Positions 14,613-43,588 of a stretch of 44,876 nt of DNA are shown piece by piece. The translations under genes and the position numbers were made by a program. Within the stretch, counting starts at the first letter, position 1; every line of letters starts with the position of its first letter. A model generated the notes under the pieces. The model worked only from the letters and a program-made list of their open reading frames with translations. It searched no databases and was not told the DNA's origin. Source of the DNA: a virus. The stretch covers positions 1-44,876 of IMG/VR virus record IMGVR_UViG_3300013285_000026, one strand, 5' to 3'.

Positions 14613-15242
14613 TTAACTCAATGCTACTGCCATTGCAATAGTGAATCCCTTGCTGGCTCCGGCAGTCTTTTGTACAGTTCCATCTGGGAATTTTAAACTA
14701 CCATCTGTATTGAAAGACCAACTTTGTGCAGATATTGTTATTTTTATAGGCTTGCTCTGGGTATACAACTGCATACCATCCCCGCCACCTGTGCTATATC
14801 TAATCTGAGGGTAGACACTATCACCAGCATCTGGAAAGTAAAGTGTTTTATTAAGGGCATCTAAAGCCCACGCATATGCCGCATCACCATCAACGCCCGA
14901 AAAAATAACGCCATTGCCTGTTTGCAATCTGATAGATAGTGGGTTAATCTTAAAGGTGGTATTGACTGTGGGGCCGGGCGAGCTGTTGGAAAGATTTACT
15001 GTTAGCGAATTACCCGTGGGTATAGTAATGCTTTGACCAGTAGTAGTGGTAGCGTCAGGGAATGTTAAGTTACCATTTGCTCCAAGGGTAAGTGTATATG
15101 CACCGTTGGTCAGCTGTGTCTCATCTGCGCCCCCAGCATATAGTTCAGTGAAGTTGGCATTTATTTTAGTAAACGCCGTGCGCAACGGATCTCCGTTCTT
15201 GGCATTGGCCGCGGTACCGATATTGATTACTTGTTTTGTCAT
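14613..15242 (-). CDS. Tail-fibre-like protein with the shared N-terminal module
   Basis: A 209-residue protein. Residues 1-37 (VINIGTAANAKNGDPLRTAF, KINANFTELY) are the shared N-terminal module. Residues about 45-110 are threonine- and glycine-rich beta strands (GAYTLTLGANGNLTFPD, repeated as WSFNTDGSLKFPDGTVQ near the C-terminus), a pattern common in phage fibre tips. Its ATG overlaps the TAA of the giant gene by one base, so the two are translationally linked. The C-terminal ASKGFTIAMAVALS lacks a recognised chaperone domain. The role in host recognition is an inference. Confidence 0.8.
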   Translation of the reverse strand: MTKQVINIGTAANAKNGDPLRTAFTKINANFTELYAGGADETQLTNGAYTLTLGANGNLTFPDATTTTGQSITIPTGNSLTVNLSNSSPGPTVNTTFKINPLSIRLQTGNGVIFSGVDGDAAYAWALDALNKTLYFPDAGDSVYPQIRYSTGGGDGMQLYTQSKPIKITISAQSWSFNTDGSLKFPDGTVQKTAGASKGFTIAMAVALS

Positions 15243-27200: not shown

Positions 27201-29707
27201 GTAAATGTTGTTGTGTTAACAATACTATTGATATAGTATGTTTGACCACCTGTGATATTTCCTAAGAATGGAACAACAGTGGTAGTACCAGTACCATATA
27301 CACCAGGGTTACTTGCAAATGTAAAAGAAATACTAGATTTGGTACTAGTTGAACATGTAAAGACGCCGTTATAAGCTGTATTGCTATTACCTGCAATGGT
27401 ATATGATATAGCCGTTGTAGGTGCAGTGGTTTGTGTTGGAATTGCAAATGTAACAGTATAAGGCCCGGATCCGGCAATGGTCTGGAATCCAGATACTGTG
27501 ATAGCTATCGGAGTTCCGAATGTAATTGGCATACCCACTGACAATGATTTAGTGCTTGCAGTAGTAATATATGCATTCGAACTTGCAGTTGCAGTAACAA
27601 CAACACTTGTACCACTAATAATTGCAATAAGATTTGCAATAGTTGATGATTGAACCGAGCCACTAGGATAACTCAAATTCTGATATTGTATGACAGACGA
27701 CTGATAAACTTGTGCAGGCGATTGATTTTGAATAGCCGCTTGCATCATGACTCCTAAATAGGCCATTGCTGCCGCAGTTGCGGTTACTTCAGTCGAAGCA
27801 ATTTGTTGGATGCTATTATACCAGTAGCGTTGGCCAGCATAAATTGTTCTGCTGTTACCGCCGTACAATTGATCGTAGGCAACGGCTTCAACAATGTATC
27901 CAACGTCTCGCTTGCAAGTAGCAGAGCTGAACGAAAGTTTGGGATAAGTTGCACCTAAATAGGCAATAACTTCTGCTTGGAAAAACGAAATATTGTTCAA
28001 CAATAAAATAGTAGCAGAATTAACACCAACCGGAGTTGTATAGACACTAGAATTTAATGCTGGCAAACTTACAGTAGGAGAATTACTACCTTGTACAATA
28101 CTGATAATTATGTTGATATTATTCTTAATAAGTGTTTGTACTGCATTGTTACTGTTAACAATGGATAGTGCATTAATTTGTGTGTACAAATAATTTAATG
28201 CGGCAACCATTTCAACTACAGTTACACCGGTATTGGCATTTGGATAATAACGACCAATGATTATACTTTGATAATTGCTACCAAACAACATGTCGTAATT
28301 TACAGCATTAATAACACTAGTTAGATAACTGGTTAAATTATTTGTATTGTATGCAAAACTTAATACTTGTGATTTAGCTTGGTTAATACCGTCGATAGTT
28401 TGAACCAACTGATTGCTGATAACATTAGCTGATTGTGGATTAAAATATGCAGTGCCTATTTGTAAACTTTTAAAGTTAGTGCTTAACACCAAGTCTTCAC
28501 TAGTTGCTCTTAAAATACCAACTACATTGCTTTGAAATAATGCTTGATCGTAAGTAAATGCGTTAACATATTTGTTGTTAACATACGCAATAGTTTCTGA
28601 TTGTATAAATGTTTTATTTGTTTCTAACAAATATGCGGCATCGAGGAATCCTTGTGATGCATAATTACCGCCGGATAAGCTAAGGCCAGTGATTGAACTG
28701 TAGTATTGATTAGGACTAATTGTATAAGCAATACGTTGACGGTAAGGGCCAGGTTCTGCATTAGATAAATTAATTAATGTTTCTGCTTGAAGAGCAGCCG
28801 CGCCGATGGTCTTATAAGCATAATTCCAGAATCTTCCTTCGCTACCCGATGGAGTTTTAAGTTGTGTATCATCTCCTGAGCTAGTTGAAACATATAAGTT
28901 AATACCCGATACAAATGTTTTATTATCTACATAAAATTTAGTTGCAGCCTGTCGGTCATCAGAGCCGTTTGGAGTACCTTGTCCAGCTGACGAACCTGGG
29001 TGATCGCTTAATGTTAGCTTACCAGTCATCGTATCGCCACCGCGATAAACTACGTGCTTACGTTGTACAGCTTCAGTGGCTAACAAATTGCCTGTCAATG
29101 TTGGATCGTAACTAGTGCTTGCTGGATTTAACGGACTGTCGATATCGGTAATATTTGGTGTTACTGGTTCTTCTCTTAAACGAATAGGACCGTTGACATT
29201 TTGTCCGTTGGCCGCTGCCAAATAATGGCTATCGGCATAACCTTTGCTTATAGGTAATCCTGCAAGGGTAGTACTGGCAAGTCCGGCAAAGGTAGAATTA
29301 AATTGTGTAACAATAGCATCAGACGGATCTGGAATATTTCCAATTGGTTGGAAATTTGCATCCATAGGATAACCTAAACGTGGCTGTTTATCGTTGGCCA
29401 AGTTAGATAATTGTCCGATAATTTTAAGTTGTGTTGGGCTACTATTATCGATAGTAATACCAGTTTGTCCAACAATATCCTTGGCTAAAATACGTTTTAG
29501 TCCGTTTACCGTACCTGCAACAAACGTTTGCCCTACAGCATAACTTCCCGGAGCATCGCTTAAGGCTGTGAACGGAATAGTTCCACCGGAGCCAAAAACA
29601 GCATATATTTCGTTAAAATTAGCATTAACTTTACGGAACGAATCGCGAATACTATCGCCAGTACCGTCATTACCTTGTACGCCGATATCAATTATTTGTT
29701 GTGACAT
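15242..29707 (-). CDS. 4821-residue giant fibre/adhesin-like protein
   Basis: One uninterrupted frame of 14.5 kb, a third of the window. It begins with the shared module (IIDIGVQGNDGTGDSIRDSF, KVNANFNEIY). Residues about 380-1500 hold helical-looking units with RDVGYIVEA and YDxLYGGN. Residues about 1583-1670 (EAGIYYEDYPIRV, VSVRGDEFRRTIVRP, IIDGLQIG) look like a right-handed beta-helix of the pectate-lyase type. From 750 to 4340 there are at least six YNG repeats and seven STPSGTL repeats, all Thr/Ser/Gly/Val-rich beta units. The last 130 residues (YADLAEWYTSDAEYIPGTV, VAGVVTTNPAY) match a C-terminal domain common in marine phage fibres. ATG at 29707 has a GGAG Shine-Dalgarno. Probably a very long fibre or tail spike that binds surface glycans. 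The exact role is unknown. Confidence 0.85.
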   Translation of the reverse strand: MSQQIIDIGVQGNDGTGDSIRDSFRKVNANFNEIYAVFGSGGTIPFTALSDAPGSYAVGQTFVAGTVNGLKRILAKDIVGQTGITIDNSSPTQLKIIGQLSNLANDKQPRLGYPMDANFQPIGNIPDPSDAIVTQFNSTFAGLASTTLAGLPISKGYADSHYLAAANGQNVNGPIRLREEPVTPNITDIDSPLNPASTSYDPTLTGNLLATEAVQRKHVVYRGGDTMTGKLTLSDHPGSSAGQGTPNGSDDRQAATKFYVDNKTFVSGINLYVSTSSGDDTQLKTPSGSEGRFWNYAYKTIGAAALQAETLINLSNAEPGPYRQRIAYTISPNQYYSSITGLSLSGGNYASQGFLDAAYLLETNKTFIQSETIAYVNNKYVNAFTYDQALFQSNVVGILRATSEDLVLSTNFKSLQIGTAYFNPQSANVISNQLVQTIDGINQAKSQVLSFAYNTNNLTSYLTSVINAVNYDMLFGSNYQSIIIGRYYPNANTGVTVVEMVAALNYLYTQINALSIVNSNNAVQTLIKNNINIIISIVQGSNSPTVSLPALNSSVYTTPVGVNSATILLLNNISFFQAEVIAYLGATYPKLSFSSATCKRDVGYIVEAVAYDQLYGGNSRTIYAGQRYWYNSIQQIASTEVTATAAAMAYLGVMMQAAIQNQSPAQVYQSSVIQYQNLSYPSGSVQSSTIANLIAIISGTSVVVTATASSNAYITTASTKSLSVGMPITFGTPIAITVSGFQTIAGSGPYTVTFAIPTQTTAPTTAISYTIAGNSNTAYNGVFTCSTSTKSSISFTFASNPGVYGTGTTTVVPFLGNITGGQTYYINSIVNTTTFTISGSPGGNNVALANAAVIITGTVQGLIVANTPPNLVSPTTSNGPTARQLVYGSSGIGNGTTFAGFINNTISYLNIQYPYINNSNAITGLTNKFKTVTDVLNGGLGNRPNFTFTAPSSLAANIANSATLITKNYAFAQAEIIGWVKNLSSSFTYVAADGQQQFAKDIQLLMEATAYDMLYGGNSGCYTAASQYWYLNSNNNLTSTIDTSESSIKSQAFAYLQTLIGNIATNNGPGAVYQDRVTNYVTYSSKTGTGPYLVTLNLATARVIPIPIGTLVTLQGQSNTSYNATNSVVASTTTSITISYAADPGTWSNATPTNYIIAQFIDTYNYPTKDADNTNTTVSGLITALWNMMTSVIATNAVQVITSPDLTNSVFSSSGYTTVRGVILNNATPISQAVTAYLNATYTGGFAYNQATCYRDVGYIVDAMAIDLLTGGTYQSINAGKSYYKNSSAKTVAIGTQNKQTLDAIAFARDLSLQVLNQQSGNRYQTLVTQTTYNSNKNPNTGYVATASYVSVSSKTLTVNSVSGTIQTGMVVTGSGFTSGQIVTAVNGNTITLSTSSDSTPSGTLTFTITAVSTFTNNYATMLNIVKSGVSAAPTPSFGTGIYTLSFGNGGNGYVDQGQTGDIKILAGKIIRGITSGVTGTIIAYTQGGTNSNDNVTLRQTSPGFWQIVTTTATGTSGTNTLTVTTASGTTIGNGLTTIQIGMGVSGVSGIPAGVTVTGVNGASITLSANLIANVTTGSGTITFAEQLEYAESVGNQQITIMVEAGIYYEDYPIRVAANVSVRGDEFRRTIVRPLDRVSQSPWRSLFFYRDSIIDGLQIGPINNGIGATDYSPTVNISSYTTKTAGSGSTYRVTFAIPTAYGVANTALQYTISGNTNLSYNGTFSAYASSSGSITLIYPSDPGTYGTSTITTINNLVSAALSGSSGSITITLGGNTQANVSWLGYVFQSDAVDSYGKPGQAVVNSVSGNFMNCTVIYPFAIPGTLTITNVIGSFQVNETISQASTGAVGIITSVLSGSISYTPTTGTFVTSNTVVGSSSGATATVSSVVLASINAGAWHLYTTNNYGRHYLKDPTQLESSTNTALNNKEIDMFLCNDAVRISNLTGQGHGGFMMVLDPEGQIKSKSPYGQVCTSFSRSINKQTFAGGQFVDGFTGRLFGTITGSTPDGLTVTVTGNAGSGLDVRAPQAPCAFYVTGNRYQINAITSYSQLFDVNSNVIGGTVIFSMATSTPWTGGTGQAINIEMGGNKSMLANDYAQVNDLGYAILATNGGITEQVSTFTYYCWTSFWALNGGQIRSIGSSSAHGQYALRASGYDVTELPDSVNLANNLAQTAKIYNPPTLPQSQTNNAFYNSMNTGATTLYIINYDYYPTNISELEIDHSLAGKGIGRYQVNSISHTTIYVPTGSVGTGYAVNAVTYTASGSSGTTLVVSSTTGIVAGMTVKGTGFISAQQVVTVLADGISLILDAAPDSTPSGTLYIGDTITISGSLLGGKDGSLTANAVIGSNVITSVSTLSAVTPSNALLIIPYSTTGYVTKTLVSGTIYDVVFNIPTQSAQPAVSAGYTVYGATTTAYNGSATVSASSLNTITIRYATDPGTFSQATSAVIMQPGFTVSGSSKTGSAPSVLVTLTIPTQSVPPLVGGYYTVAGNSNTSYNGLYVSTASTVTSVTLRYVTDPGAYGSGTTTVTFMGSTIRGFGLPFGSTALATYTNNQIILNNAATATGAGNTYTTNSSNDITIYIQTLINSAVSTFTYSGNGAYGGSATYSNIVATSSSSTGQYAYFNIVLTAGNYSSVNLGGQNVLALNLSTSSGSSGYSSTGLAAPLYDGQMIQIRTLQNFKFYNVNNVNPTRPSTAAQFNDNLSSIYRVLAYNLTEATNEILPNHVAVLSTDQSFAYYIFQADTGSITKTDPIDGGSKTMGATPGDTRIAVTTFGPQSYIDQVNKGTYAFAWGGRVHTIASYTPPVTTTYYTGYNPTGSTGTTLVVGGTFTANIANNQTSVTNVSSFTGLVVGEILSAVSGIQAGTTIVSINLSTNSLTLSAAATATTVGLSITYGGTSGMFAGMIITGTGFTSGQTISSVSNSTTLIISASPNSTPSGTLIFSYSTTPYITLGSIKYTIAGGGGSTTTVPFIAQQSRGQVVATYFPTVSFYGNTTNGSTNIINISSLTNIGQGATITGAGIPGQVVVSATTTTQNIAVTTSSVISSAGVLTVGTVSSGTVAVGMQLTGPNVVVAQTNAISGTSGNGTTATMTLVTPTPTLLGTTQAGSYLTLSSTTGIAVNQQIVFTTVQQSTTATGTVNSSVSLTTSSISGFQLTVGAGAAAIGQQLTGVGVLAGTYIVSGSGSTWIVSQNHSVPIGPITITATTNSITVGSTAGLVIGEPVTFGTALGNLATGTTYYISEVINATSFSVVSAYGGTSNFVVTTTSGSSVVTAGASLGGITSGATYYILSVNTGTNQITVSTGYGSSIQGVTSASGTWTSVAGIPYVAGSTVTISGLTPTGYNQTATVLASPSPTITTFAYTNATVGAITAVTATYVSGGVSSTTVTISGASGGTIAVGMTITGTGFTSGQTVASIINSTSFTITGGTNGGFADSTPSGSLTFKQYGFVSSSGPTYITANISGSGNGSTWQTSTNLAVASTTITGTNNIVTISNPTAGTIVAGNTLTFDPTSGASFGGLTNSSTYYIKQVLSSTQIILNAYGSNSSYLYNGYNTTAIPVSTATGSITGRTDNYILSTNTGGTFTANTNTNGNTTLLGTITVAASGALNGFSSTTVPLPPGTQIVVSGGTNAYIASGTYYVASTPAPTTTTLSLVTTQGGSTPVTTTAGLSDRTFTFGNTFTPSKVLTGVPATVFTYIVVGTPIGGGNSSPIPGSTTVAAFDAGSQTITLNNAATGVQSGWTFTYTANTLVMSAPASATAASSFIQSTTLSTTMVVYTNDRTQYITSIVSAGTPMTVFGNGFTSGQTVISAVPSASGAPTTVITLSAPPNSTPFGVLGFTALGNASGPYYTTFTFATQATAPTVDVYYNVTGNSNNKYNGWVQATASTTSTITLAYQTDPESTVVVTYVPSGSSGTTLKVSSTTGIVAGMVIRGGGAGGFFAGQTVSSVGTDGLTLTISASPAGTPTGNITFTVPYGTGTTSFTNNVSGISKPMNSAVSSALQAGYQANSFAQITTRISTCRCSAHDLLDIGTGGYNTTNYPYQIYGNPFIKADQTKEIKEETVGRVFYVTTDQNGIFRVGRYFTVDQGTGTVTFSASIALSNLNGLGFKRGVVIAEFSTDSTMTNDASDTVPTQSAVRGYIDNRLGVQQSGSTTPATALIGNGYMELKGTLPMKGNMSMGGYTIGSLGSPLLATDASTKGYVDNTVSGVNALSKLGDVAVNNPVNQSLLVYNSTTSKWNNAVFSQGVSGSAFSDVLITYDGTTLTSTLQGAIITPTYVGYNSGTKQLTVSSTTGIIPGMTITGIGFTSSQKVVNIVNTVILTISADPDTTPNGILTFTRDGVVINNKVYKYAAIQQSKLAMTMATTNGYTAPTYNLLSPGSIVAGKRYVISTVGSTDFTLIGAASNTGGLIFQATGAGTGTGSVTELDSIQANNGLSSYSSYIFTVNNGWVTLKDGSATGSATTTGVDGIPPSKLQWIPANSALANITASAPGAIAVVTTQALVANGDGIRNQDIPTSTSTTGAIIRTQASPTAVYDVTAITTTGANNSLVKTDGSGNIDIKGIKFASLPSVGNMIDSSSTLLSFYTPNSGSSQKFMTATYDSGNTRSNVVHYGLQDFAVQSSIVLITDLRTSSANNTTSGTLSGSWRLSANSSFDLNTNSNTLKVKSIITDGTDGGGCTMQGTYTLTGASKLQATYADLAEWYTSDAEYIPGTVLVFGGEAETTTTTEFGDSRVAGVVTTNPAYTMNDGLTGTRACIALAGRTPVRVLGTIKKGDLITTASVAGYGCKAVNPQFGTIIGKALADKTDPGFGTVEVAVGRM

Positions 29708-30095: not shown

Positions 30096-30383
30096 ATGTT
30101 CTTAACCACTGAATTTAGAGAAAACCACTATGTGCGGGTCAGCAAGAAAGGTAAGACGCATACTTATAGTCGTAAAAAGACTGTACTAGTCATGAGATGT
30201 GATTGCTGTCAGGAAGTGTTTCAACGAGATAAAGGACAGATGGATCCGCATCGATTGACCAATAGTGTTTATCATGTATGCGGTAATTGTGATGCTAAAA
30301 AGTTTGCCCAGGAAAAGGGTGTTGAAGCACGTAAGGTTTGGGATATGCCAGTTAGCAGTCTTAAATCAATCAGCCAGCTGTAG
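30096..30383 (+). CDS. Small zinc-finger-like protein
   Basis: A 95-residue basic protein from the ATG at 30096 (a TTG at 30093 is also in frame). It has two CxxC pairs, CDCC at about residues 36-39 and CGNC at about 72-75, separated by a His-containing stretch (MDPHRLTNSVYHVC), which fits a zinc ribbon. The N-terminus is rich in Lys and Arg, so nucleic-acid binding is plausible. No Shine-Dalgarno is visible; a TATAAT lies only about 18 bases upstream, so the message could be nearly leaderless. Its 3' end overlaps the convergent superoxide dismutase gene by 14 bases. Role unknown. Confidence 0.7.
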   Translation: MFLTTEFRENHYVRVSKKGKTHTYSRKKTVLVMRCDCCQEVFQRDKGQMDPHRLTNSVYHVCGNCDAKKFAQEKGVEARKVWDMPVSSLKSISQL

Positions 30384-30930
30384 GAACACGGCCGTTAATA
30401 ATAGCCCAGTCCATAATTTTCCACTGATTTTCAAGATACTTTTTCTTATCTGCTTGATAATCTAATGCCCAAGCATGTTCCCACCAATCCACAAGTATAA
30501 CTATATCGTGTTTGATCTGATGGTTTGTAATGGTTTTTATTTCTCCATTGCGGGCTAGATAGACCCAGCCACTACCTTGCACAGACATTGCTTCCTTTTG
30601 AAATTTATCTTTAAAATTATCAAAAGTTTTGAAATGTTTTGTAATGAATTCGTCTATTACACCGGTAGGTTGATTTGATCCAGCAGGTTTTTTAAATTGA
30701 GTGAACCAAATGTTGTGTAAAAATGCTCCTGCCTCATTGAAGTCGGCATTGCCTTCTCCGTCGTTGAATCTAGTAACGTACCCTTTGTATAACTTGCCGT
30801 AATGATAGTTTATAGTTTCTTCGCTCATGCTGGGCTCTAGATCATCCTTGGCATAGGGCAATCTCGTTTGTGTTAACGTTTTAGGTGTCTTACCCTCGTT
30901 TAGGGTGATATGCTTAATAAAGTTGTACAT
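30370..30930 (-). CDS. Fe/Mn-type superoxide dismutase
   Basis: A 186-residue enzyme of the Fe/Mn family that converts superoxide to oxygen and hydrogen peroxide. The four metal ligands are present: His43 in INYHYGK, His72 in AFLHNIWF, and Asp148 and His152 in VDWWEHAW. The N-terminal LPYAKDDLEPSMSEET and the GSGWVYL segment are also typical. The residues that decide between iron and manganese are not clear enough to choose. It has no signal peptide, so it acts in the cytoplasm of the infected cell. The ATG at 30930 has no visible Shine-Dalgarno and only a GATAAATATC box immediately before it. It converges on the zinc-finger gene. Confidence 0.93.
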   Translation of the reverse strand: MYNFIKHITLNEGKTPKTLTQTRLPYAKDDLEPSMSEETINYHYGKLYKGYVTRFNDGEGNADFNEAGAFLHNIWFTQFKKPAGSNQPTGVIDEFITKHFKTFDNFKDKFQKEAMSVQGSGWVYLARNGEIKTITNHQIKHDIVILVDWWEHAWALDYQADKKKYLENQWKIMDWAIINGRVPTAG

Positions 30931-33623: not shown

Positions 33624-35087
33624 TTAATTGATAAGACCGAACGGTGCCCACTGTCCAGGAGTGCCAGATACAATGCAAACCCAACCCATATATCCACCAA
33701 CAGTTGGTTCAGTGTTCCAACATGTATCGCCTTTGTTAAACAAACCGCTTGTGGGTGCGGCATCTGCTGTTATAAATTTACGTCCGGCAAAACCAATGTT
33801 ACCAGCAACTTGTAAACTTAAAGTTGGATCCGGTGTGTTTATATTAATACTTAAATTACCAAATACTTTAACAGACTTTGCACTAGCTTGTGCATTGCCG
33901 ATGGAAATAGCATGTTCGTTAATTTCCAATGCTGTAGTATTGTTAATACTTATAGATAAATTGTCAGAATTTATACTAGACAAACTAACAGAATTAACTG
34001 TCAGTTCGGTTGTATGTATAGCTTGTGCTGTGACTGTCGCAAGATTACTTGATCCCAATACTGTTAAATTATCCAATGTGCCAAGTACGCTTAAATTACT
34101 AGATGTAATACTAGAACCTAATGCTGTTTCGGATAGCATTAACTGGTCGTTAATTTTGTAACTTTTTCCGGGGCTTAAATTAATATCTTCACTACTCCAT
34201 AATGTAGAGCCAGTCATTATCAAATGTTTGTTACTGCGAACATCTGTCCATACTAATCCTGTATCAGCAGTGTTAAATTCTACATTATTAGTTGTTTTTG
34301 TATTAGTTATAATCTCATTAGCATAAACAGTACCATGTACATATAAATTAGTAGCTGTTTGGATTTTTGAACCAATATGTATTTCGCCTGTACGTATAGT
34401 AATACGGGGAATGTTGTCGGAAACAATAACCAAATCATTATTAGTAAAAGATCCAATCGCCGCCGCGCCGTTAAGAGATCCTAGTATAACTTCCACATTA
34501 TCTGCCACCACACCAAATACCGCATTGGGGTTTTCAGTGTTAATACCAACCCTAGATGTATCGCTAGCAACAACTAACACATCACCTAAATTTGTGTCGC
34601 CTACGACAGTTAAATTGTTTAACGGAGCAAGTTGTCGCAAACTACTTTTTATTACGCTTGAACCGAGTGCATTGGATGTAAGTACATCTAAATTGTTGAT
34701 TTGGTAGGTGTTGCCCGGAGCCAAATCAAAATTCATATTAGTCCATAGACGTCCACCCGTTCTATAAGCCAATTGTGTTTCTACATTTAAAGTTCCCCAA
34801 GCTATACCTTGCCCGTTAAGCTCTTCTTCTGTCGCGGCTAAAAATTTAGTAGACCCATTAGCGCCGTTATTGGTTAAATTATTATTAATAATTTGATTGG
34901 CTTGTATAACGTCGACTATAAGTTTTCTCTGTACAGTAACGTCCCCGGTAATAGTTATATCGCCGTTGACAGTTTCAGTTCCGTTAATCGTTAACGAACC
35001 TGTGTGCGTAACGTCGCCTTCTAGACTGGTTAAATCTAGTTTATTAATAACAATTTTGTCGTCTTGTATGCTGAATAGTTGGCTCAT
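33624..35087 (-). CDS. Tail-fibre-like structural protein
   Basis: A 487-residue protein rich in Asn, Thr, Ser, Leu, Val and Ile. The N-terminal 60 residues form short beta repeats (THTGSLTINGTETVNGDITITGD), as in beta-solenoid or trimeric fibre shafts. Later sections resemble each other: residues around 110-155 (WTNMNFDLAPGNTYQINNLDVL..ALGSSVI) and 290-340 (WSSEDINLSPGKSYKINDQLML..ALGSSIT), an internal duplication. The end, GLFNKGDTCWNTEPTVGGYMGWVCIVSG, is similar to C-terminal domains of many phage fibres. It has an AATAAATA late box and an AAAGGA Shine-Dalgarno. A fibre role is likely, the receptor unknown. Confidence 0.82.
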   Translation of the reverse strand: MSQLFSIQDDKIVINKLDLTSLEGDVTHTGSLTINGTETVNGDITITGDVTVQRKLIVDVIQANQIINNNLTNNGANGSTKFLAATEEELNGQGIAWGTLNVETQLAYRTGGRLWTNMNFDLAPGNTYQINNLDVLTSNALGSSVIKSSLRQLAPLNNLTVVGDTNLGDVLVVASDTSRVGINTENPNAVFGVVADNVEVILGSLNGAAAIGSFTNNDLVIVSDNIPRITIRTGEIHIGSKIQTATNLYVHGTVYANEIITNTKTTNNVEFNTADTGLVWTDVRSNKHLIMTGSTLWSSEDINLSPGKSYKINDQLMLSETALGSSITSSNLSVLGTLDNLTVLGSSNLATVTAQAIHTTELTVNSVSLSSINSDNLSISINNTTALEINEHAISIGNAQASAKSVKVFGNLSININTPDPTLSLQVAGNIGFAGRKFITADAAPTSGLFNKGDTCWNTEPTVGGYMGWVCIVSGTPGQWAPFGLIN

Positions 35088-35175: not shown

Positions 35176-36381
35176 TTAAGCTACTTTAAGTAGAATAGTG
35201 TCTTCATTAATACGACCATTCATCTTAGTATCTGTAGCATTAATATCTTCTAAGAACTTACGCAACTGTACTTTGCCTGCCGATTTAAATTCTTTAAGCT
35301 TCTCTTCGGGTTTACGTACAGTTTTTTGTACACTCTTAAACTCGTCAAAACCCGTAATCGTAGTACCTTTAACTCCTAAGGTTTGGAATTCGGCGGCTAC
35401 ATACTTGCCCAATTTACGAGTCTTAGTGTTAAAGATCCAAAGTTCACCAACTCCAATGATGTCAGTTGGGTTAATGGATACTAATTTTAGTGGCTCATTA
35501 GTCTTCATGTACTTGAGTTTAGCAACGATCTTTTCAGCCGGAACAGCCTTCTTGGCACGTGGTGTACGATTGACTTTGGCTTCTTGTGCCAACATGTCAC
35601 ATGCACTCATAATTTCTTGATAGAACGCAATTAAGTTCTTAATTTGTTTCTTTGTACGGTGGCTATAGCCCTCACGTAGCTGTTCGTCAGCATTACCGGA
35701 TGCCAACTCCTCCAGTTCGGACAAGTCCTTGCTATAGAACCCTTTAATGATCCTTGCATGAGCGGCTTTAACTTCTTTGCCTTTGAGCAAGTTAAGCATC
35801 TTAAATGCTTTTGGATCAAAGTTTTCTGGGTCAGTTTGGAAACCTTCGATAGCATCTTCAATTTCTTCGGTCATTCTATAAGCGGCTTCTTTGACACGCT
35901 CTTGGATTGAAGGAGTATATACCGCAGGCTTTGTCGCTTCAGCCGCCCTGGCTTCGTCTGGATCAATATCGTTTTTACCTTCAGAAATAACTTTAACAAT
36001 TTCAGCACGGAGCCAAGCCGCTGTGTCACGACCTTGATTAAAGTCTGCACGTAACGGAGTCATGCCGCGATTCAAACAGCAAGCAACTGCACCCATTGTA
36101 GTACCAACACGCGAATCTTTTACTTTTTTGAACGCTGTAATGTCAGCTTTGGTGCATCCAACACTTTCCATCCATTTGGCAACAGCAGGCTTGTAAGTTT
36201 TGATGTCACTTTCCAAACGGTAATAGTCCATAGACTTCTTAAAAAAGCGATGGAAAGTATCGGCATCCCAAGTTTCACAACCTTCCCAAACTGGGCTATG
36301 ATCTTTAACTGCACGGGTCCGATGTGCTGTTACTTGCTTCTTAGTAATACGTGACTTTTTTGCGGGTGCTTTAGTAGCCAT
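35176..36381 (-). CDS. Conserved phage protein of unknown function, basic N-terminus
   Basis: A 401-residue, highly charged, largely helical protein. The N-terminus is Lys/Ala/Arg-rich (MATKAPAKKSRITKKQ), like a DNA-binding tail. The middle has long helices (IQERVKEAAYRMTEEIEDAIEG) and the C-terminal 120 residues look like a separate alpha/beta domain (IIGVGELWIFNTKTRKLGKYV). It has its own perfect sigma-70 promoter, a GGAG Shine-Dalgarno and a terminator, so it is expressed alone and early. This suits an abundant DNA-binding or host-takeover protein; no family is recognised. Confidence 0.8.
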   Translation of the reverse strand: MATKAPAKKSRITKKQVTAHRTRAVKDHSPVWEGCETWDADTFHRFFKKSMDYYRLESDIKTYKPAVAKWMESVGCTKADITAFKKVKDSRVGTTMGAVACCLNRGMTPLRADFNQGRDTAAWLRAEIVKVISEGKNDIDPDEARAAEATKPAVYTPSIQERVKEAAYRMTEEIEDAIEGFQTDPENFDPKAFKMLNLLKGKEVKAAHARIIKGFYSKDLSELEELASGNADEQLREGYSHRTKKQIKNLIAFYQEIMSACDMLAQEAKVNRTPRAKKAVPAEKIVAKLKYMKTNEPLKLVSINPTDIIGVGELWIFNTKTRKLGKYVAAEFQTLGVKGTTITGFDEFKSVQKTVRKPEEKLKEFKSAGKVQLRKFLEDINATDTKMNGRINEDTILLKVA

Positions 36382-36410: not shown

Positions 36411-36439
36411 ATTATAGTGTCATTTGGTTAACTTGTCAA
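36411..36439 (-). promoter_or_regulatory. Perfect consensus sigma-70 promoter
   Basis: TTGACA (36434-36439) and TATAAT (36411-36416) on the minus strand, with the optimal 17-base spacer. The -35 lies inside the 3' end of the SGNH-like gene. It drives the gene starting at 36381, with a leader of about 23 bases. Confidence 0.9.
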
Positions 36440-37124
36440 CCGCTGGAATAACAACTTTCTCGGCCCAAAATCTATGTCCAATTTCACTATAGTGTCCGTT
36501 GTCCTGTACGGATTCTGGACAGTTGTCATTGAGATAATTTGAATAAATTTCTCCAATGTAAGTACCTACTAACGTTGGTGTATTATCTCGCATATTAATT
36601 ATTTGATTTAAGATATCCACAGGCATTTTGGATAACTCTGTATCAAATTCGAAATACTCTATTAAATATCTATCAAAAAACCATACTACCTTTTTATTAC
36701 TAAGCAGACGCATAATACTATAAAAATGGATAAACCAAAGTCTACGCCAATGATTGTCGCCCGTAAGGGTGCCTAGAAACCCGTGTAAAGCCCTAGTGTG
36801 TTCTTGCCCGGTGTGTACTAAGCTATCAGGATTTATTATGTTGTAGGGCTTGTTATCAGGTGTGATAAGTTTGAACCAAGTTGGGTTAGTGCTTACTTGC
36901 AAAATAATTACATCATCTTCTTCAAAATTTGTTGACAATATATCTGCATGAATTTGATCCATACTGTTTCCGCATTTTGCCAAATTAATATGTTCTACGC
37001 CAAAATATTCAGCAGTAATATTGGCATATGAAAATTTACTTAAAGTATCGTAATTTGGATTATCCTTTACATCAGGTAATCCATAGCCGACTGAATGACT
37101 GCTTCCAAAAGTGATAATTCTCAT
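36420..37124 (-). CDS. SGNH-hydrolase-like protein
   Basis: A 234-residue protein with the signatures of the SGNH/GDSL fold: block I as IITFGSSHSVGYG (nucleophile Ser8 or Ser9), a block with Gly and Asn in LAKCGNSMDQIHADI, a strand VIILQVSTNPTW, and the C-terminal DNGHYSEIGHRFWAE with the Asp-x-x-His type pair. Such enzymes usually remove acetyl or acyl groups from sugars or lipids. It overlaps the next upstream SGNH-like gene by four bases and follows the four radical SAM genes. No signal peptide, so it would act in the cell or as part of the virion. Substrate unknown. Confidence 0.7.
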   Translation of the reverse strand: MRIITFGSSHSVGYGLPDVKDNPNYDTLSKFSYANITAEYFGVEHINLAKCGNSMDQIHADILSTNFEEDDVIILQVSTNPTWFKLITPDNKPYNIINPDSLVHTGQEHTRALHGFLGTLTGDNHWRRLWFIHFYSIMRLLSNKKVVWFFDRYLIEYFEFDTELSKMPVDILNQIINMRDNTPTLVGTYIGEIYSNYLNDNCPESVQDNGHYSEIGHRFWAEKVVIPAVDKLTK

Positions 37125-37645
37125 AGTAGTTTATTCAAATGCATACCAATAACAAGATTACCTTCCTGTGACATGTGATTTATATTTCCTTTGTGCCACA
37201 CATACGTAAATCTATATTCAGTATCTTCAAAAAAGTTTAAATGAATACTGTTAGGAACACGTTTTAAATCGTATTCTAGTAGTTTATATTGGTCGTAAAA
37301 GTATGTATCATCCCAGATAGTTTTAAGTATATTGATGAATTTTGTTTCTTGTTTATGTTGTATGTCTGATAAAATTATATCGCAAAATACATGACTGGGC
37401 AATAATCTACTTAACAAATCCGTTACTGTATTTTTTAAAAATACACGACTGTAGCTGGTATGACAAAAAATTATTTTGTCTTCTGGTTTAATATCTACTT
37501 TAGCTTGTTGATATGATTTCCATATTCGGTATTCGCTACTGCCATTACTGGCACAATTTATTACTCGTCCATTCAGCAATTTTGTCCAAGAGTGCTTGTG
37601 TTTACTTGCGGCAAAACTATCTCCAAAGATCCAAATTCTATTCAT
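37121..37645 (-). CDS. Second SGNH-hydrolase-like protein
   Basis: From the ATG at 37645 a 174-residue protein starting MNRIWIFGDSFAAS, with the GDS block I of the SGNH family. A block with Gly-Ser (NCASNGSSEYRIW) and a C-terminal NINHMSQEGN (possible catalytic His) follow. A TTG start 24 bases further upstream is also in frame but would overlap the radical SAM gene more. The ATG overlaps the end of the radical SAM gene by eight bases. It is shorter than most SGNH enzymes. It may modify glycans together with the neighbouring gene. Confidence 0.65.
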   Translation of the reverse strand: MNRIWIFGDSFAASKHKHSWTKLLNGRVINCASNGSSEYRIWKSYQQAKVDIKPEDKIIFCHTSYSRVFLKNTVTDLLSRLLPSHVFCDIILSDIQHKQETKFINILKTIWDDTYFYDQYKLLEYDLKRVPNSIHLNFFEDTEYRFTYVWHKGNINHMSQEGNLVIGMHLNKLL

Positions 37646-38837
37646 AATAAGGTCTAATCTCTTCCACAATGTCGTCTGGCAAAATATCTAACAAATTTTC
37701 ATTACGTACAGTATCATGCTGTTTAAATATTTTGTATGCTTGTTTAATTTCATCGTCACTGGGTTGTTGGCTATACATCAAACTGACAATACCTGCGATG
37801 TCGTTTTTATATGCTCCCCAGTCATATGTAGCCCATTTGTCACGAATACGATTTTTCAGGGTAGCTGGAATCATGTACACTGCCATATGTGACGGATAAT
37901 GTATGATATTATTCCATATCTTAAACTCGTCCATGTTTTCTTTAATGAATGTATGAAATTCTGGTAACTCCCAAGAGTTAATCCAACCTATAGTATGACT
38001 AATGCTAGGCCCAATCTGTCTACGATTAATAGTTTTAATCATGTCGTTATAGGCAAACATATTAGTCTTAACTTCCTCCCAATCGCCGGGATGCCTTAAG
38101 TAGTTGTATACCTTACCCATGCCATCAATACTGAGACCAAGACCGATATGTCTAAAATTATTAACTAAATCTTCAACAATATCTCCGGCATAGATAGTGC
38201 AATTGGTACTGATATCCATATTGATATTTTTAGCTAGATCTTGTTCGATAAATTCTTGCCATAGAATCTTCCATCGATTAATATAAAACGGTTCTCCGCC
38301 TACTATTTCTAATCTAGCAACACTGGGCATCCACTCACTGCGTTTGTTCCACAATACGCTGTTATTTTCACCGCTTTGACCTTCGGGCATTTTATAACCA
38401 GTATCGCCCCAAATAACTTTATGTTCAGCTTGCCATAAACTACTATGGCTTGGGGTACAGCTACGGCACTTTAAATTACAGGCATTACTAAGTATCATTT
38501 GATACTCTACTGGAAATTCTGGTTCTTTATTATAGTCGGGTAAAAAATAAAAGTCGCCTTCGATATGACGTTGACGTTTGCTAGTGTAGTTGTTTTGCTC
38601 ATCTACAATACAAGTTTCGCACTCCTTGGGCTGTGCTCCTTGTCTAAACGATTCACGCAAATTCTTCATGTACTTGCTGGCAAAGATTTCCTTAACACTA
38701 TGAGTCTGTACATACATTTCCTTGCCTGTTTCGTCTTTAATGAAACCTTTGTATAAACAACAAGGTCGTGCTTTGCCGTCTGGATCATTACTAAACCCAG
38801 TCCACGGGAGTTTGCAATACCAATTAGATGCTGTCAT
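37638..38837 (-). CDS. Radical SAM protein 1 with N-terminal cysteine module (twitch-like)
   Basis: A 399-residue radical SAM enzyme. CxxxCxxC is at Cys120, Cys124 and Cys127 (NACNLKCRSC) for the [4Fe-4S] cluster that cleaves S-adenosylmethionine, and GGEP is at 180-183. Before the barrel are extra cysteines at 8, 26, 27, 73 and 76 (PCCLY, CETC), enough for a second cluster; this fits the family annotated as twitch-domain radical SAM protein. It is the most diverged of the four. It overlaps the previous radical SAM gene by 14 bases and the SGNH-like gene by eight. The substrate is unknown; a peptide or carbohydrate are both possible. Confidence 0.85.
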   Translation of the reverse strand: MTASNWYCKLPWTGFSNDPDGKARPCCLYKGFIKDETGKEMYVQTHSVKEIFASKYMKNLRESFRQGAQPKECETCIVDEQNNYTSKRQRHIEGDFYFLPDYNKEPEFPVEYQMILSNACNLKCRSCTPSHSSLWQAEHKVIWGDTGYKMPEGQSGENNSVLWNKRSEWMPSVARLEIVGGEPFYINRWKILWQEFIEQDLAKNINMDISTNCTIYAGDIVEDLVNNFRHIGLGLSIDGMGKVYNYLRHPGDWEEVKTNMFAYNDMIKTINRRQIGPSISHTIGWINSWELPEFHTFIKENMDEFKIWNNIIHYPSHMAVYMIPATLKNRIRDKWATYDWGAYKNDIAGIVSLMYSQQPSDDEIKQAYKIFKQHDTVRNENLLDILPDDIVEEIRPYYE

Positions 38838-40029
38838 ACCACTCTATAAATCCTTTGTCTAAACTCTTTTTATAGTTTTTATTTCTACGTTGATCATACT
38901 GTGCAACAAAACTTTTTAAATCAATTAACAAATCGTAATCAGCTTCTTGAATAGGAGAGTTAGACAATAAGTTAACAAGACGTTCTATGTGTTGCTGTTC
39001 TACTTCGCTAAACATATCTTTAAATGGGCTATACACTTTATTAATACGTCCGGCAATTGACTGCTGATAAAATTGAGGAATTATTCCTATATTCATAAAC
39101 TTTGGATACTGCACAAAGTTGCAACTAGTTTCTACTTTGTTTCCATATTTAAGTTTTAAATCTATCGCTATTTTTAAATACTCATCAAAACTCCAAACAG
39201 ACAAATTATTAATAGCAGTACTAAGATTAACTATGATACGTTTTGTGCTTAAAACTTTTTCAACATTACCGATCCAAGTTTTTTCTACAAAACCATCTCT
39301 AACATATTCTGCTTGTTTAAAACTACTTTCTATACTAGTATGTATGCGTAAATCAATGTGTTGTGTTTTTTCTAATAATCTTTCTATCTCGTCTTTGTGA
39401 CATATTAGATTACTATTAACAATAAGGGTGCCCCTAAATCCATCTAGCATATACAAAAATTTCCAAAAGTTTGGACTCATTAAAGGTTCGCCACCGGTAA
39501 TTCTTAACGTATTAATTTTAATTTTTAATTCAGGCCACCACGAAAAGAACGCATCGACATAAGGATTATCTTCAGGAAGTATGCTAGTATCTTGATATCT
39601 ACTATCTGTCTTTAATTTATAAAGACCATTCTTTTTAATTTCATTAGACCACTTACTACTAAAACTAGGACTACAATATGCGCAGGCAAGATTACAAGTG
39701 CGTTCAAATGCTATTTCTAATATTTGAGGATCGGCCGCCAAGTTTTGATAATCAACAAAATGTAATCGTTCTGTTTTAATTGTCCGGTCACTTATTTGCC
39801 CGCGATCTTCTGCTTCCCAACAATAACTACATCCTGGCGGACGTTTGCCAACGAGCATTGCAATACGCTCTTCTAACTTTTCAGGAGTATTATAAATGCT
39901 ACTAGGCGTAGAAGGGTACAGCGTTATTTTATGAAATGGGTTATGGTGACAGCTAGCAGTAGTACCTTGGTATAACCAGATAGTGCCTTCAGCCCATTTA
40001 GCACGACATAGTGTATTAGATGCTATCAT
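38824..40029 (-). CDS. Radical SAM protein 2 with N-terminal cysteine module (twitch-like)
   Basis: A 401-residue radical SAM enzyme. The cluster motif CNLACAYC has Cys112, Cys116 and Cys119, and TGGEPLMS follows in the barrel. The N-terminal module has Cys8, Cys27 (SCHHNPFH), Cys67 and Cys70 (GCSYCW), placed as in the next two proteins. The C-terminus YDQRRNKNYKKSL and EWYDSI is nearly the same as in protein 3. It starts MIASN inside the stop region of gene 3 with a 14-base overlap, and the same kind of overlap joins it to gene 1. It looks like a tandem duplicate. Substrate unknown. Confidence 0.88.
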   Translation of the reverse strand: MIASNTLCRAKWAEGTIWLYQGTTASCHHNPFHKITLYPSTPSSIYNTPEKLEERIAMLVGKRPPGCSYCWEAEDRGQISDRTIKTERLHFVDYQNLAADPQILEIAFERTCNLACAYCSPSFSSKWSNEIKKNGLYKLKTDSRYQDTSILPEDNPYVDAFFSWWPELKIKINTLRITGGEPLMSPNFWKFLYMLDGFRGTLIVNSNLICHKDEIERLLEKTQHIDLRIHTSIESSFKQAEYVRDGFVEKTWIGNVEKVLSTKRIIVNLSTAINNLSVWSFDEYLKIAIDLKLKYGNKVETSCNFVQYPKFMNIGIIPQFYQQSIAGRINKVYSPFKDMFSEVEQQHIERLVNLLSNSPIQEADYDLLIDLKSFVAQYDQRRNKNYKKSLDKGFIEWYDSI

Positions 40030-41371
40030 ACCACTCTACAAGTATAGGACTAAATGTTTTGCGGAAGTTTTTACCTCTGCGTTGATCATATTGTTCATAA
40101 AACTTTTTAAAGTCTTTCTGTGCAGTAGCCTGTACATAGCCTTCGCCGTGCGGAGTTTTAACAATGTCCAAGTAGTCTATTAGACGTTCTATGTTACTCT
40201 TTTCAAAATTGTTCAAATCTGGATTAGACTTGTTAGTTGCATACCAATCACTGAGACGTTTGTTATAATGTTGTCTAATATGGTCTGGTAGTGTTAATGC
40301 ACTTTGGAAACTTGGGAAACGTAATATATTAAGGCTAAAATTGATGTGCCATTGCCCATAAGTTTTCTTCCATGCCATAACCTGATCCAACATTTTAGGC
40401 AAACTCTCAAGACACAACGCATTGATAGTCATCATAATGCTTAGCCGCATACGTTCTGCCTTGAGCAAATGCTCCATATTGCTAAACCATTGATTCCAGT
40501 CTAAGCCATCTCGAATATATTCAGCGTGTGATCCTATACTTTCATTACTAGTGTATAACATCATCTTGACGCCTTCGGTACTGTCTAACATACGATCAAC
40601 AACGTCTTGACTAAATCCTAAATTACTATTAAGTGCTAGTTGGCAATTGCTTTTGTTCTTGTTTGCTTTAAACCAATCAAACAATTTCCAAGTGTGCCCA
40701 CTCATTAACGGCTCGCCGCCTGTGATACGTAACTCTGTCAGTGTGCGATACAAATCACTTTCCCACCATGCAAAGAAAGCTTCGATGTAAGGGTTGGTTT
40801 CGTGGAAGTCGTATAGTTGGTCGTGTTCGTGTACATGGGTAAAATGTCCACGGCCATCTGTAACTAAATTGATATAAGGTCCGTTCTTTTTAATGTCTTT
40901 AACCCATGTTGTACTAAACGCTGGATTACAGTAACTACAGGCAAACTGACAAGTGCGGTCAAATGCAATTTCCAATGTACGTAAATCAACATCGTCCTCT
41001 ATTGGAGTATGTGTTGCCAACAACAAATCTGCTTCGGTGTAAGTCATACTTTTATACGGCCGATCACTTACTGCATCCACACCCATGTCTTCAATCTTCC
41101 AGCAGTATTCGCATCCTGCAGGTCGCTCACCGGTTAACATTTTACGGCGGTCTTCTTTCTTTTGAGGAGTGTTATGAATTGCTTTAGGATTAAATTTAAT
41201 TATTTGTATGTCTGCTTTATGCGCAGGTGGGTGATGGCAACTGGTTGTTTGACCAGAACCTAACCATATAGTAGCATTATACCACTTGGCTCCGCAAAAG
41301 CTAGGGCTAATAGCATCTAGCACACGCTTCTTATATTCTAAATCAGTTTCGTTAGGTCTTTTCACATTCAA
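40016..41371 (-). CDS. Radical SAM protein 3 with N-terminal cysteine module (twitch-like)
   Basis: A 451-residue radical SAM enzyme. Cluster cysteines are Cys141, Cys145 and Cys148 (CQFACSYC), with ITGGEPLMSG later. The N-terminal module is SFCGAKW (Cys26), SCHHPPAHK (Cys45) and CEYCW (Cys87, Cys90). It has a short N-terminal extension before this module and ends with YDQRRGKNFRKTF and EWYDSI. It overlaps gene 4 by 20 bases and gene 2 by 14. It belongs to the same family as its neighbours and is probably expressed from one long message. Substrate unknown. Confidence 0.88.
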   Translation of the reverse strand: MNVKRPNETDLEYKKRVLDAISPSFCGAKWYNATIWLGSGQTTSCHHPPAHKADIQIIKFNPKAIHNTPQKKEDRRKMLTGERPAGCEYCWKIEDMGVDAVSDRPYKSMTYTEADLLLATHTPIEDDVDLRTLEIAFDRTCQFACSYCNPAFSTTWVKDIKKNGPYINLVTDGRGHFTHVHEHDQLYDFHETNPYIEAFFAWWESDLYRTLTELRITGGEPLMSGHTWKLFDWFKANKNKSNCQLALNSNLGFSQDVVDRMLDSTEGVKMMLYTSNESIGSHAEYIRDGLDWNQWFSNMEHLLKAERMRLSIMMTINALCLESLPKMLDQVMAWKKTYGQWHINFSLNILRFPSFQSALTLPDHIRQHYNKRLSDWYATNKSNPDLNNFEKSNIERLIDYLDIVKTPHGEGYVQATAQKDFKKFYEQYDQRRGKNFRKTFSPILVEWYDSI

Positions 41372-42749
41372 TCCAAAAGTTTTCTAGTTCGGGGAATGTA
41401 TTTAAAAAATTAGTTCCCCTGCGTTCATCATGCTGGCTAAAGAACAGGTAAAAGTCCTTCATGGATTTTTTCTTATCAAAATCAGTATCGCTTTTAATCC
41501 AATCGATTAATCGTTGGACTTTACTTATTTCAAAGTCCTTAAATCCTTTAAAACGAGTAGCATCTGTTTCTTTATTGTTGTCCATATACTTGATCGCTTC
41601 GTCTAATTCTATAATCAGTTCGGGCAACAGTTTAGGGTTTAACCACATGGGATCATTAAGCATGGGTATATCAAACCAAATAAGTTGTCTGTTTGTACAA
41701 TACTCGTTACGCAGTTTGTGTATATTCTTGATATATTTTACAAAGCCTGAATAACTCAATGCATTAAATGTAATAATAAATGTAAGACTATGTTTTTGAC
41801 TTACCCGTAGGTACTCAGTTATATTAGTGTATAAAGTACAAAAATCTAAACCATTACGAATATACTCTGCCTGGATACCCCATGAGTCTAAACTACAGAA
41901 CAACATAAAGTGATCCACTGCATCGGCATCTGTGACTTGTTTTAAACTGATTAAAAACTTTGCCCATTGCTCTCCCGGCGGACAGCAATTACTGGTAATA
42001 CTTAACTGTAATTTAGGATGTGGATGTTCTTTGACATAGTCGAACATACGGAATGTATTTTTATCCATCAAGGGCTCGCCGCCAGTCATACGAAATGTTT
42101 GTAGAGTAGGATATATCTGCGGTAACCATTCCCAGAACGCTAACAAGTAAGGATTGTCCAAACCATTATCAGGTACCATGTTTTGGTTACGCATCCATTG
42201 TGTGTCGTTATGTTTGCCCTCACTAAGTTGATACGGGCCAAGTCTATCAACTTCTTTGTTCCATTCTGTACTTAAATGCGGACTGCAATAACTACATTTA
42301 AAATTACAAGCCTGGTTAAAGTTTACTTCTACATAGCGTGGGTTTGGCTTATTAGTGGTTAATGCCTCTTCTATCAAGCCAGGCTCGTATACGTCTTTGC
42401 TACGATATGCACGATCGCTTAACTGTGAGCCACTATCCTCTATTTGCCAACAAAATCCGCACTCGACCGGACGTTCACCTTTGAGCATTAGTTTACGCTG
42501 TTCTTGTTTGTGTTTTGTATTGTGCAATGCACTTATATCAACAGCAATTTCTTTTAAAGGTATCGTATGAGTAGGTGGATGATAACAACTGTGTGTACGA
42601 CCCGTAGGTATGTGTATGCTTACATTATACCACTTGGCAAGACAAAAGCTAGGACTGACTGCATTAAGGGCAGAAAAGACCGACTCGGAATCATTTAGAT
42701 ATTTTGATTCGAATCGGCCGTTTATCTTGCGAACTTCATCGCCTTTCAT
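41352..42749 (-). CDS. Radical SAM protein 4 with N-terminal cysteine module (twitch-like)
   Basis: A 465-residue radical SAM enzyme, the first in the array. Cluster cysteines are Cys148, Cys152 and Cys155 (CNFKCSYC), with MTGGEPLMDK later. The N-terminal module is SFCLAKW (Cys36), SCYHPPTH (Cys55) and CGFCW (Cys97, Cys100). The C-terminus has HDERRGTNFLNTF, a weaker form of the ending in proteins 2 and 3. Its ATG overlaps the TAA of the 279-aa gene by one base. A pair of cysteines in the barrel (NCCPP) is special to this copy. Substrate unknown. Confidence 0.88.
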   Translation of the reverse strand: MKGDEVRKINGRFESKYLNDSESVFSALNAVSPSFCLAKWYNVSIHIPTGRTHSCYHPPTHTIPLKEIAVDISALHNTKHKQEQRKLMLKGERPVECGFCWQIEDSGSQLSDRAYRSKDVYEPGLIEEALTTNKPNPRYVEVNFNQACNFKCSYCSPHLSTEWNKEVDRLGPYQLSEGKHNDTQWMRNQNMVPDNGLDNPYLLAFWEWLPQIYPTLQTFRMTGGEPLMDKNTFRMFDYVKEHPHPKLQLSITSNCCPPGEQWAKFLISLKQVTDADAVDHFMLFCSLDSWGIQAEYIRNGLDFCTLYTNITEYLRVSQKHSLTFIITFNALSYSGFVKYIKNIHKLRNEYCTNRQLIWFDIPMLNDPMWLNPKLLPELIIELDEAIKYMDNNKETDATRFKGFKDFEISKVQRLIDWIKSDTDFDKKKSMKDFYLFFSQHDERRGTNFLNTFPELENFWIECEKT

Positions 42750-43588
42750 TAGGTCCAGAGACTTTGTCTAATTTTGATAAGACGAATCATCATTTCTTCA
42801 TCTTCCTTTTCATATGCCTTTTCAATTTTGTTCAAAAGTTTATGAGACTTATCACTGGCTTTCTTATCTTCAGGATCTTTGCTGTTTAGGCTAGAAAAGA
42901 AACTGCCAGGATACTTTACACGCATGGCATCACAGTACGCACTCCAGCCACTTGCTTCATACGGATCTGGTCGATTACGATAGGTAACAGTCCACCAAGT
43001 GTAAAGCTCGATAATTTCTTTAGCGGCTTTGGCTTGGTAGGTAGGTTCGCCATAACCTTTTTCACTAGGATTAGACCCCATGTTTTCGTCTACTACAAGT
43101 CCGCTTGCCCACTTGAGGTATTCCATACCAGCTTCTGGACTTCTCCATGTACGTAGTCGTAACCAACCACTGCGCCACCAAGGAACTTCAAATTCAGTTT
43201 TAGCATCATCACTCCACATACAGTGATGCCATGCTTGTTCTATTTCAACAAAATCCACAAGCTCATTGAACATACAAGGAAGAAAGCGATTGCCAACATC
43301 ACTCCAACTACCCGGTTTGATGTCTCGAGGATGTGCGGTAAGAGCGTGGCTGTGAGAAACCCAGCGATTGTTAATATAATAGCGTATGTCATTTAGTTTG
43401 TCCGGAATGTAGTAAACGAATTTTTGAACATAATCTATTCCTTCTTCGGCCAACCAATAACGGAAATTATGTTTCATTTGTGCGGCAGTAGTCCAGTCGT
43501 CCCATTCTTCAGCCGTCCCGGCACTAAGTTTGTTAGTACCACGAACCCAATCTGCAAACTTGCTACATGTCCAATAATGTGATCTCAT
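42749..43588 (-). CDS. Conserved phage protein of unknown function, Trp-rich
   Basis: A 279-residue soluble protein with an unusually high number of Trp and Tyr (SHYWTCSKFADWVRG, DDWTTAAQ, AELYTWWTV style segments, VPWWRSGWLRLRTW). No signal peptide or membrane segment. The C-terminal 50 residues are charged helix. It overlaps the 44-aa ORF upstream (ATGA) and the first radical SAM gene downstream (TAATG), so it is part of the same transcript. Proteins of this type occur in T4-like phages without known role. It may be a DNA-metabolism protein or a partner of the radical SAM enzymes. Confidence 0.75.
   Translation of the reverse strand: MRSHYWTCSKFADWVRGTNKLSAGTAEEWDDWTTAAQMKHNFRYWLAEEGIDYVQKFVYYIPDKLNDIRYYINNRWVSHSHALTAHPRDIKPGSWSDVGNRFLPCMFNELVDFVEIEQAWHHCMWSDDAKTEFEVPWWRSGWLRLRTWRSPEAGMEYLKWASGLVVDENMGSNPSEKGYGEPTYQAKAAKEIIELYTWWTVTYRNRPDPYEASGWSAYCDAMRVKYPGSFFSSLNSKDPEDKKASDKSHKLLNKIEKAYEKEDEEMMIRLIKIRQSLWT

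Follow-up and report, generated by a model that had tools for sequence, protein, structure and literature searches.

An ordered array of four N-terminal-twitch radical SAM genes in a T4-like phage fragment: a possible role in glycan tailoring

Introduction

The closest described systems come from T4-like phages of aquatic environments. In the available part of its published account, the marine genome TARA_ERS488813_N000010 is reported to carry 12 radical SAM genes (PMC5332604), and the corresponding part of the pelagimyophage account describes host-recognition clusters in which radical SAM cassettes occur with glycosyltransferases (PMC7029224). Radical SAM genes are also prevalent in phages from the Tasman Sea (PMC7150976). 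As for the enzymes, published work describes SPASM and twitch domains as extensions of the C-terminus in which auxiliary clusters are bound (PMC9012708).

The window analysed here is the whole of a 44.9 kb virus record, which carries T4-like phage genes as judged by profile searches and contains four successive radical SAM genes. The preliminary description of this DNA regarded phage twitch radical SAM proteins as mostly unexplained genes. This was right as far as it went, although the family (NF033640) and, in the accessible parts of two accounts, its multi-copy occurrence in T4-like phages are already on record (PMC5332604; PMC7029224). A literature search found no paper on N-terminal twitch arrays; the present analysis adds the ordered-paralogue array and its association with SGNH and GT-A genes, for which we found no description in the literature.

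Results and Discussion

Organisation of the array

The four genes, named R4 to R1 with R4 first in transcription, occupy positions 37638-42749 on the minus strand. R4 (41352-42749), which leads the radical SAM genes of the array, encodes a protein of 465 aa that scores 310.7 bits against the NCBIfam model NF033640. It is followed by the N-terminal-twitch radical SAM proteins R3 (40016-41371, 451 aa, 299.4 bits), R2 (38824-40029, 401 aa, 246.0 bits) and R1 (37638-38837, 399 aa, 278.1 bits). The start of R3 in the list of open reading frames is a TTG, and its true start is uncertain. The overlaps R4/R3, R3/R2 and R2/R1 measure 20, 14 and 14 bases, and a motif scan found CxxxCxxC and GGEP in every copy. 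The preliminary description of four overlapping genes with these motifs, each with four cysteines ahead of the barrel in a common order, is therefore borne out for R1-R4, but its operon of four genes was drawn too narrowly.

Directly upstream, and sharing one base with R4, is a gene for a 279-aa protein (42749-43588, minus strand) with no match in Pfam, PHROG or NCBIfam. Downstream, R1 is overlapped by the gene for an SGNH-hydrolase-like protein of 182 aa with a conserved GDS block, N and H (37121-37669, minus strand; an ATG start at 37645 is more likely), which in turn shares 4 bases with the gene for a second SGNH-hydrolase-like protein, of 234 aa (36420-37124, minus strand). Because of these successive overlaps, all seven genes are closely packed into a single unit. 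Beyond a 38-base gap, downstream of the operon and still on the minus strand, lie genes for a conserved phage protein of 401 aa (35176-36381; phrog_11903, E 1e-66) and a tail-fibre-like structural protein of 487 aa (33624-35087) with PHROG matches to short tail fibre and virion structural proteins.

Three other minus-strand features of the window deserve mention in their own right. The gene at 9484-13770 encodes a 1428-aa protein whose residues 66-562 match animal haem peroxidase (PF03098, E 2.5e-110), followed by Ig-like and CBM5/12 matches; it adjoins baseplate- and fibre-like genes, its PDB matches include lactoperoxidase and peroxinectin, and the peroxidase part is present in 24 viral loci. 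An iron/manganese superoxide dismutase gene lies at 30370-30930 (PF02777, E 5.4e-22; PF00081), and an open reading frame of 4821 aa at 15242-29707 has no Pfam match and a single PHROG match, near its C-terminus.

Family membership and the N-terminal cysteine module

All four proteins match NF033640 (N_Twi_rSAM) across nearly the whole model, at 246-311 bits against a curated whole-protein cut-off of 170 bits, a margin wide enough that the family match is not due to chance. Since R1 additionally matches Pfam SPASM over residues 8-76, the N-terminal cysteine module can be identified as the known N-terminal twitch domain. The module is thus present in all four proteins, as first described, but it already has a name as a twitch/SPASM domain and is not new. 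Pfam PF04055 matches R1-R4 at E 8.5e-6 to 9.3e-5, below its cut-off score. Membership of two other groups was rejected: R1-R4 reach 25-29 bits with the viperin model NF038283, whose cut-off is 180, and their MoaA scores lie far under the cut-off of that model.

The twitch spacing consensus is CX9-15GX4C. R1 carries the arrangement C8-x12-G-x4-C26 ... C73xxC76, with equivalents in R2-R4; in R4 the twitch cysteines are residues 36, 55, 97 and 100, the SAM-cluster cysteines are 148, 152 and 155, and GGEP occupies 223-226. Two details of the preliminary description require correction: its first spacer, C-x18-C, is found in R2, R3 and R4 and is x17 in R1, and the SCxHPP motif is replaced in R2 by SCHHNP. 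In an alignment of 82 diverse members, most of them 16-66% identical to R4, the four twitch cysteines and the three of CxxxCxxC are 100% invariant. The N-terminal cysteines, whose absence from homologues had been named as evidence against the original proposal, are therefore conserved. The strict twitch spacing occurs in 558 of 637 full-length phage members and a loose form in 625. Among deposited phages, no relative of R4 was found, and R1 gave only distant matches, in two Vibrio phages.

Predicted structure of R4

The AF2 model of R4 has a pLDDT of 95.8 and a pTM of 0.93. Its best fold match in the PDB is SuiB, a SPASM peptide cyclase, followed by viperin, NifB and MoaA; the fold search returned no solved structure of the same overall arrangement. 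Since the query TM-scores do not exceed 0.36, these matches concern mainly the barrel. A sequence-profile search of the PDB likewise matched the barrel only, with MoaA as the sole family at E < 0.001.

These matches bear on two explanations of what the array does. SPASM peptide maturases form cross-links, epimerise residues or oxidise side chains, and R1-R4 could act in the same way on tail fibres or a peptide, with one fibre site per copy. The rank of SuiB favours this possibility, while the largely barrel-level nature of the match tells against it; the gene neighbourhoods discussed below carry further evidence on both sides.

MoaA, NifB and viperin, on the other hand, make or alter small molecules. 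Their place among the next fold matches, that of MoaA in the profile search, and the presence of QueD-like and nucleotide pyrophosphohydrolase genes within the window would suit enzymes that make or alter a cofactor, a nucleotide or a lipid, whether for the phage's own use or drawn from the host. However, the matches to all three fall on the shared barrel, the MoaA and viperin models exclude R1-R4 by a wide distance, T4-like phages commonly carry nucleotide genes, and the array's neighbours in relatives are SGNH and glycosyltransferase genes. We regard a small-molecule substrate as improbable.

Phylogeny and array order

Pairwise identity among R1-R4 is only 19-38%. In both trees that were built, a FastTree phylogeny of 308 representatives and an IQ-TREE phylogeny of 58, each of the four falls in its own clade together with sequences of other phages. 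R1 is the most divergent, with a well-supported branch between it and R2-R4, and sequences from Bdellovibrionota lie between and within the larger groups. A recent tandem duplication is ruled out by the low identity and the separate, supported clades. Because the copies branch far apart, with bacterial sequences between their clades, R1-R4 represent old paralogues or several acquisitions and no recent expansion. Independent acquisition of distantly branching copies had been put forward as the outcome that would speak against a multi-step system; the branches are indeed far apart, with bacterial sequences between them, yet the four are inherited together, in order, as one array.

This order is evident from the distribution of the clades over 158 loci, where the counts are biased by the two search queries used and include some loci on the same contig. 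The R4 clade is represented in 142 of them, nearly always first in the array; R3 directly follows R4 in 46, and R1-type members come later. The R2 slot is the rarest among relatives (12 loci), and exact R4-R3-R2-R1 runs occur in several contigs. Separate clades common to other phages and a conserved order fit distinct jobs for the four enzymes, and the original suggestion of specialised copies is supported.

The alternative is that the copies are diversifying or partly redundant spares, the product of gene dosage or drift in a hypervariable island, with no defined pathway. Large virus records do carry 4 to 10 family members each, R2 diverges fast, and in related phages the region is hypervariable according to the part of the account concerned with it (PMC7029224). 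Yet clade membership and order are kept over distant phages, every clade retains the catalytic cysteines without exception, and no internal stop was present among the radical SAM matches listed from the large virus records. Spare copies are accordingly a very improbable explanation.

Gene neighbourhoods in phages

Across the relatives, glycosyltransferase or sugar-modifying genes are recurrently adjacent to the array; in the window, the SGNH-like genes are the only ones of this kind. Of 190 SGNH-like genes, 147 are no more than two genes away from a radical SAM gene, compared with 30% of all non-radical-SAM genes, although such counts are not independent because the phages are related and some loci share one contig. 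The same proximity is seen for the family of the 37121-37669 gene in 26 of 32 loci and for that of the 36420-37124 gene in all seven of its loci. Neither SGNH-like gene of the window has a Pfam or PHROG match, and a weak GDSL match appears in one relative. The first family conserves the GDS block, G, N and H, with the GDS block, N and H invariant in nine relatives, and close relatives of the second keep a GSSH block and a terminal GHY..xxGH, with its SGNH blocks weaker.

A second frequent partner, cluster 2, is at most three genes away from the array in 124 of the 158 loci, in most relatives just before R4. Pfam and PHROGs gave little across the partner clusters, and cluster 2 has no match in either. 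Its proteins, however, share an invariant DxD, and a confident structural model matches mainly GT-A glycosyltransferases in the PDB, that of the PBCV-1 capsid first; the motif and fold search together point to a GT-A-like glycosyltransferase. Cluster 2 is absent from the window fragment and from a relative of 171 kb in which the array is present, while in a close relative it lies on the same contig, away from the array. One cluster 2 protein, of 760 aa (L113:7717-9999), has several degenerate repeats ahead of the GT-A-like domain.

Other sugar-related genes recur less widely: carbamoyltransferases adjoin some arrays, and some loci hold genes for a DegT (sugar) aminotransferase, an NDP-sugar epimerase or a UDP-sugar dehydrogenase. 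Vibrio phage K566, a named phage with related genes, has several radical SAM genes related to the family; among those tested, two score above the cut-off. One of its family-related genes is overlapped by a GT8 gene resembling LPS 3-alpha-galactosyltransferase, and a gene annotated PagP lies near this pair. Two contigs binned as Neomarinimicrobiota (L173 and L177) show the phage gene order (clusters 4, 3, 5, 1, 6, 2, radical SAM); they resemble phage sequence placed in a bacterial bin.

Modification of fibre proteins, the main rival to glycan tailoring, draws support from the position of the array, which lies downstream of fibre-like genes (clusters 3, 4 or 57), on the same strand and within 10 kb, in 88 of the 90 loci that have them; some of these upstream fibres carry an S74 domain. 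Against it, the partner genes are mainly sugar enzymes, no phage-locus ORF of at least 50 aa matches a PqqD-type recognition domain, the sole RRE type searched, and the overlapping operon leaves no space for a RiPP precursor gene. On these last two grounds, with the PqqD-type domain as the RRE considered, a RiPP cluster in the phage was rejected. The earlier remark that SPASM and twitch enzymes often modify peptides finds no support in the phage loci, whose neighbours point more to glycans. Overall, we consider protein modification possible but doubtful.

Bacterial relatives

Of 144 Bdellovibrionota genomes, 41 contain the family, and some of these have 11 copies or more. Contexts vary, and most copies lie in other, unexplained ones. 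In several Bacteriovoracaceae, members adjoin GT1 glycosyltransferases and ABC-2 exporters, a setting compatible with glycan export. In four Bacteriovoracaceae-type loci, by contrast, the neighbours of a member are a PqqD-type protein and a small one bearing the S74 fibre-chaperone domain, and this context is the strongest support for a peptide or protein substrate.

The four loci (L169:8939-9698, L172:15131-15977, L253:10888-11749 and L254:15965-16755) place the PqqD-type and small proteins beside the N-terminal-twitch radical SAM gene and an ABC-2 exporter; the small protein has a conserved stretch of about ESIYLDVFAGSD leading into the S74 domain. They possibly constitute an undescribed modified-protein system. 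A separate Bacteriovoracaceae contig, L167, has seven family radical SAM genes grouped on one strand, plus an eighth on the opposite strand; one of these members falls inside the phage R4 clade.

A model for glycan tailoring

To our knowledge, no reaction is known for this family of radical enzymes, of which some aquatic T4-like phages, as well as predatory bacteria and their relatives, have many copies. To the directly observed family, seven invariant cysteines, four distinct old clades, array order and neighbours, the model presented here adds a substrate, a reaction, a division of labour and a benefit, all of which we infer. We tentatively favour a reading in which R1-R4 oxidatively tailor a surface or virion glycan in successive steps, at somewhat short of even chances, because many phages have similar ordered arrays next to genes for handling sugars.

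Each enzyme would cleave SAM at its CxxxCxxC cluster, and the resulting 5'-deoxyadenosyl radical would abstract a hydrogen from the substrate; the twitch cluster may then accept an electron, in line with proposals for SPASM and twitch oxidoreductases. Judging by the neighbours, the substrate would be a sugar chain, either a host surface polysaccharide or LPS or a tail-fibre glycan, with each copy oxidising or rearranging a distinct sugar or position. The same chain could be acylated or deacylated by the SGNH-like enzymes and, in relatives, may be built by the glycosyltransferases adjoining the array. The likely benefit would be a receptor changed during infection, leading to superinfection exclusion, or altered binding by the fibre.

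A more specific proposal, which we consider unlikely as it stands, is a phage radical assembly line, in which four non-redundant enzymes, in order, would act one after another on a single glycan or fibre, of the virion or the host surface, by a radical chemistry without a known counterpart in cells. If surface glycans are indeed tailored, radical chemistry would serve phage-host recognition or superinfection exclusion. The ordered array and its sugar partners in any case provide a definite substrate class to test.

Comparison with known systems

The available parts of the accounts of TARA_ERS488813_N000010 and the pelagimyophages make no mention of the N-terminal twitch family, of ordered paralogue clades or of a link to SGNH genes. 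Compared by description, however, these phages resemble the window in having multi-copy radical SAM genes in a T4-like aquatic phage, located in an island alongside fibre and sugar genes. At the level of the protein, R1-R4 have the same domain order as NF033640 N_Twi_rSAM, and nothing tested sets them apart from this family, whose model name assigns no reaction. Viperin and the prokaryotic viperins are like R1-R4 in barrel fold and through weak HMM scores, but the added twitch domain of R1-R4 lies outside the match. Finally, the SPASM and twitch enzymes SuiB, BtrN, MoaA and PqqE likewise combine a radical SAM barrel with an auxiliary Fe-S domain of CX9-15GX4C spacing, yet in R1-R4, unlike in these enzymes, the auxiliary domain comes before the barrel.
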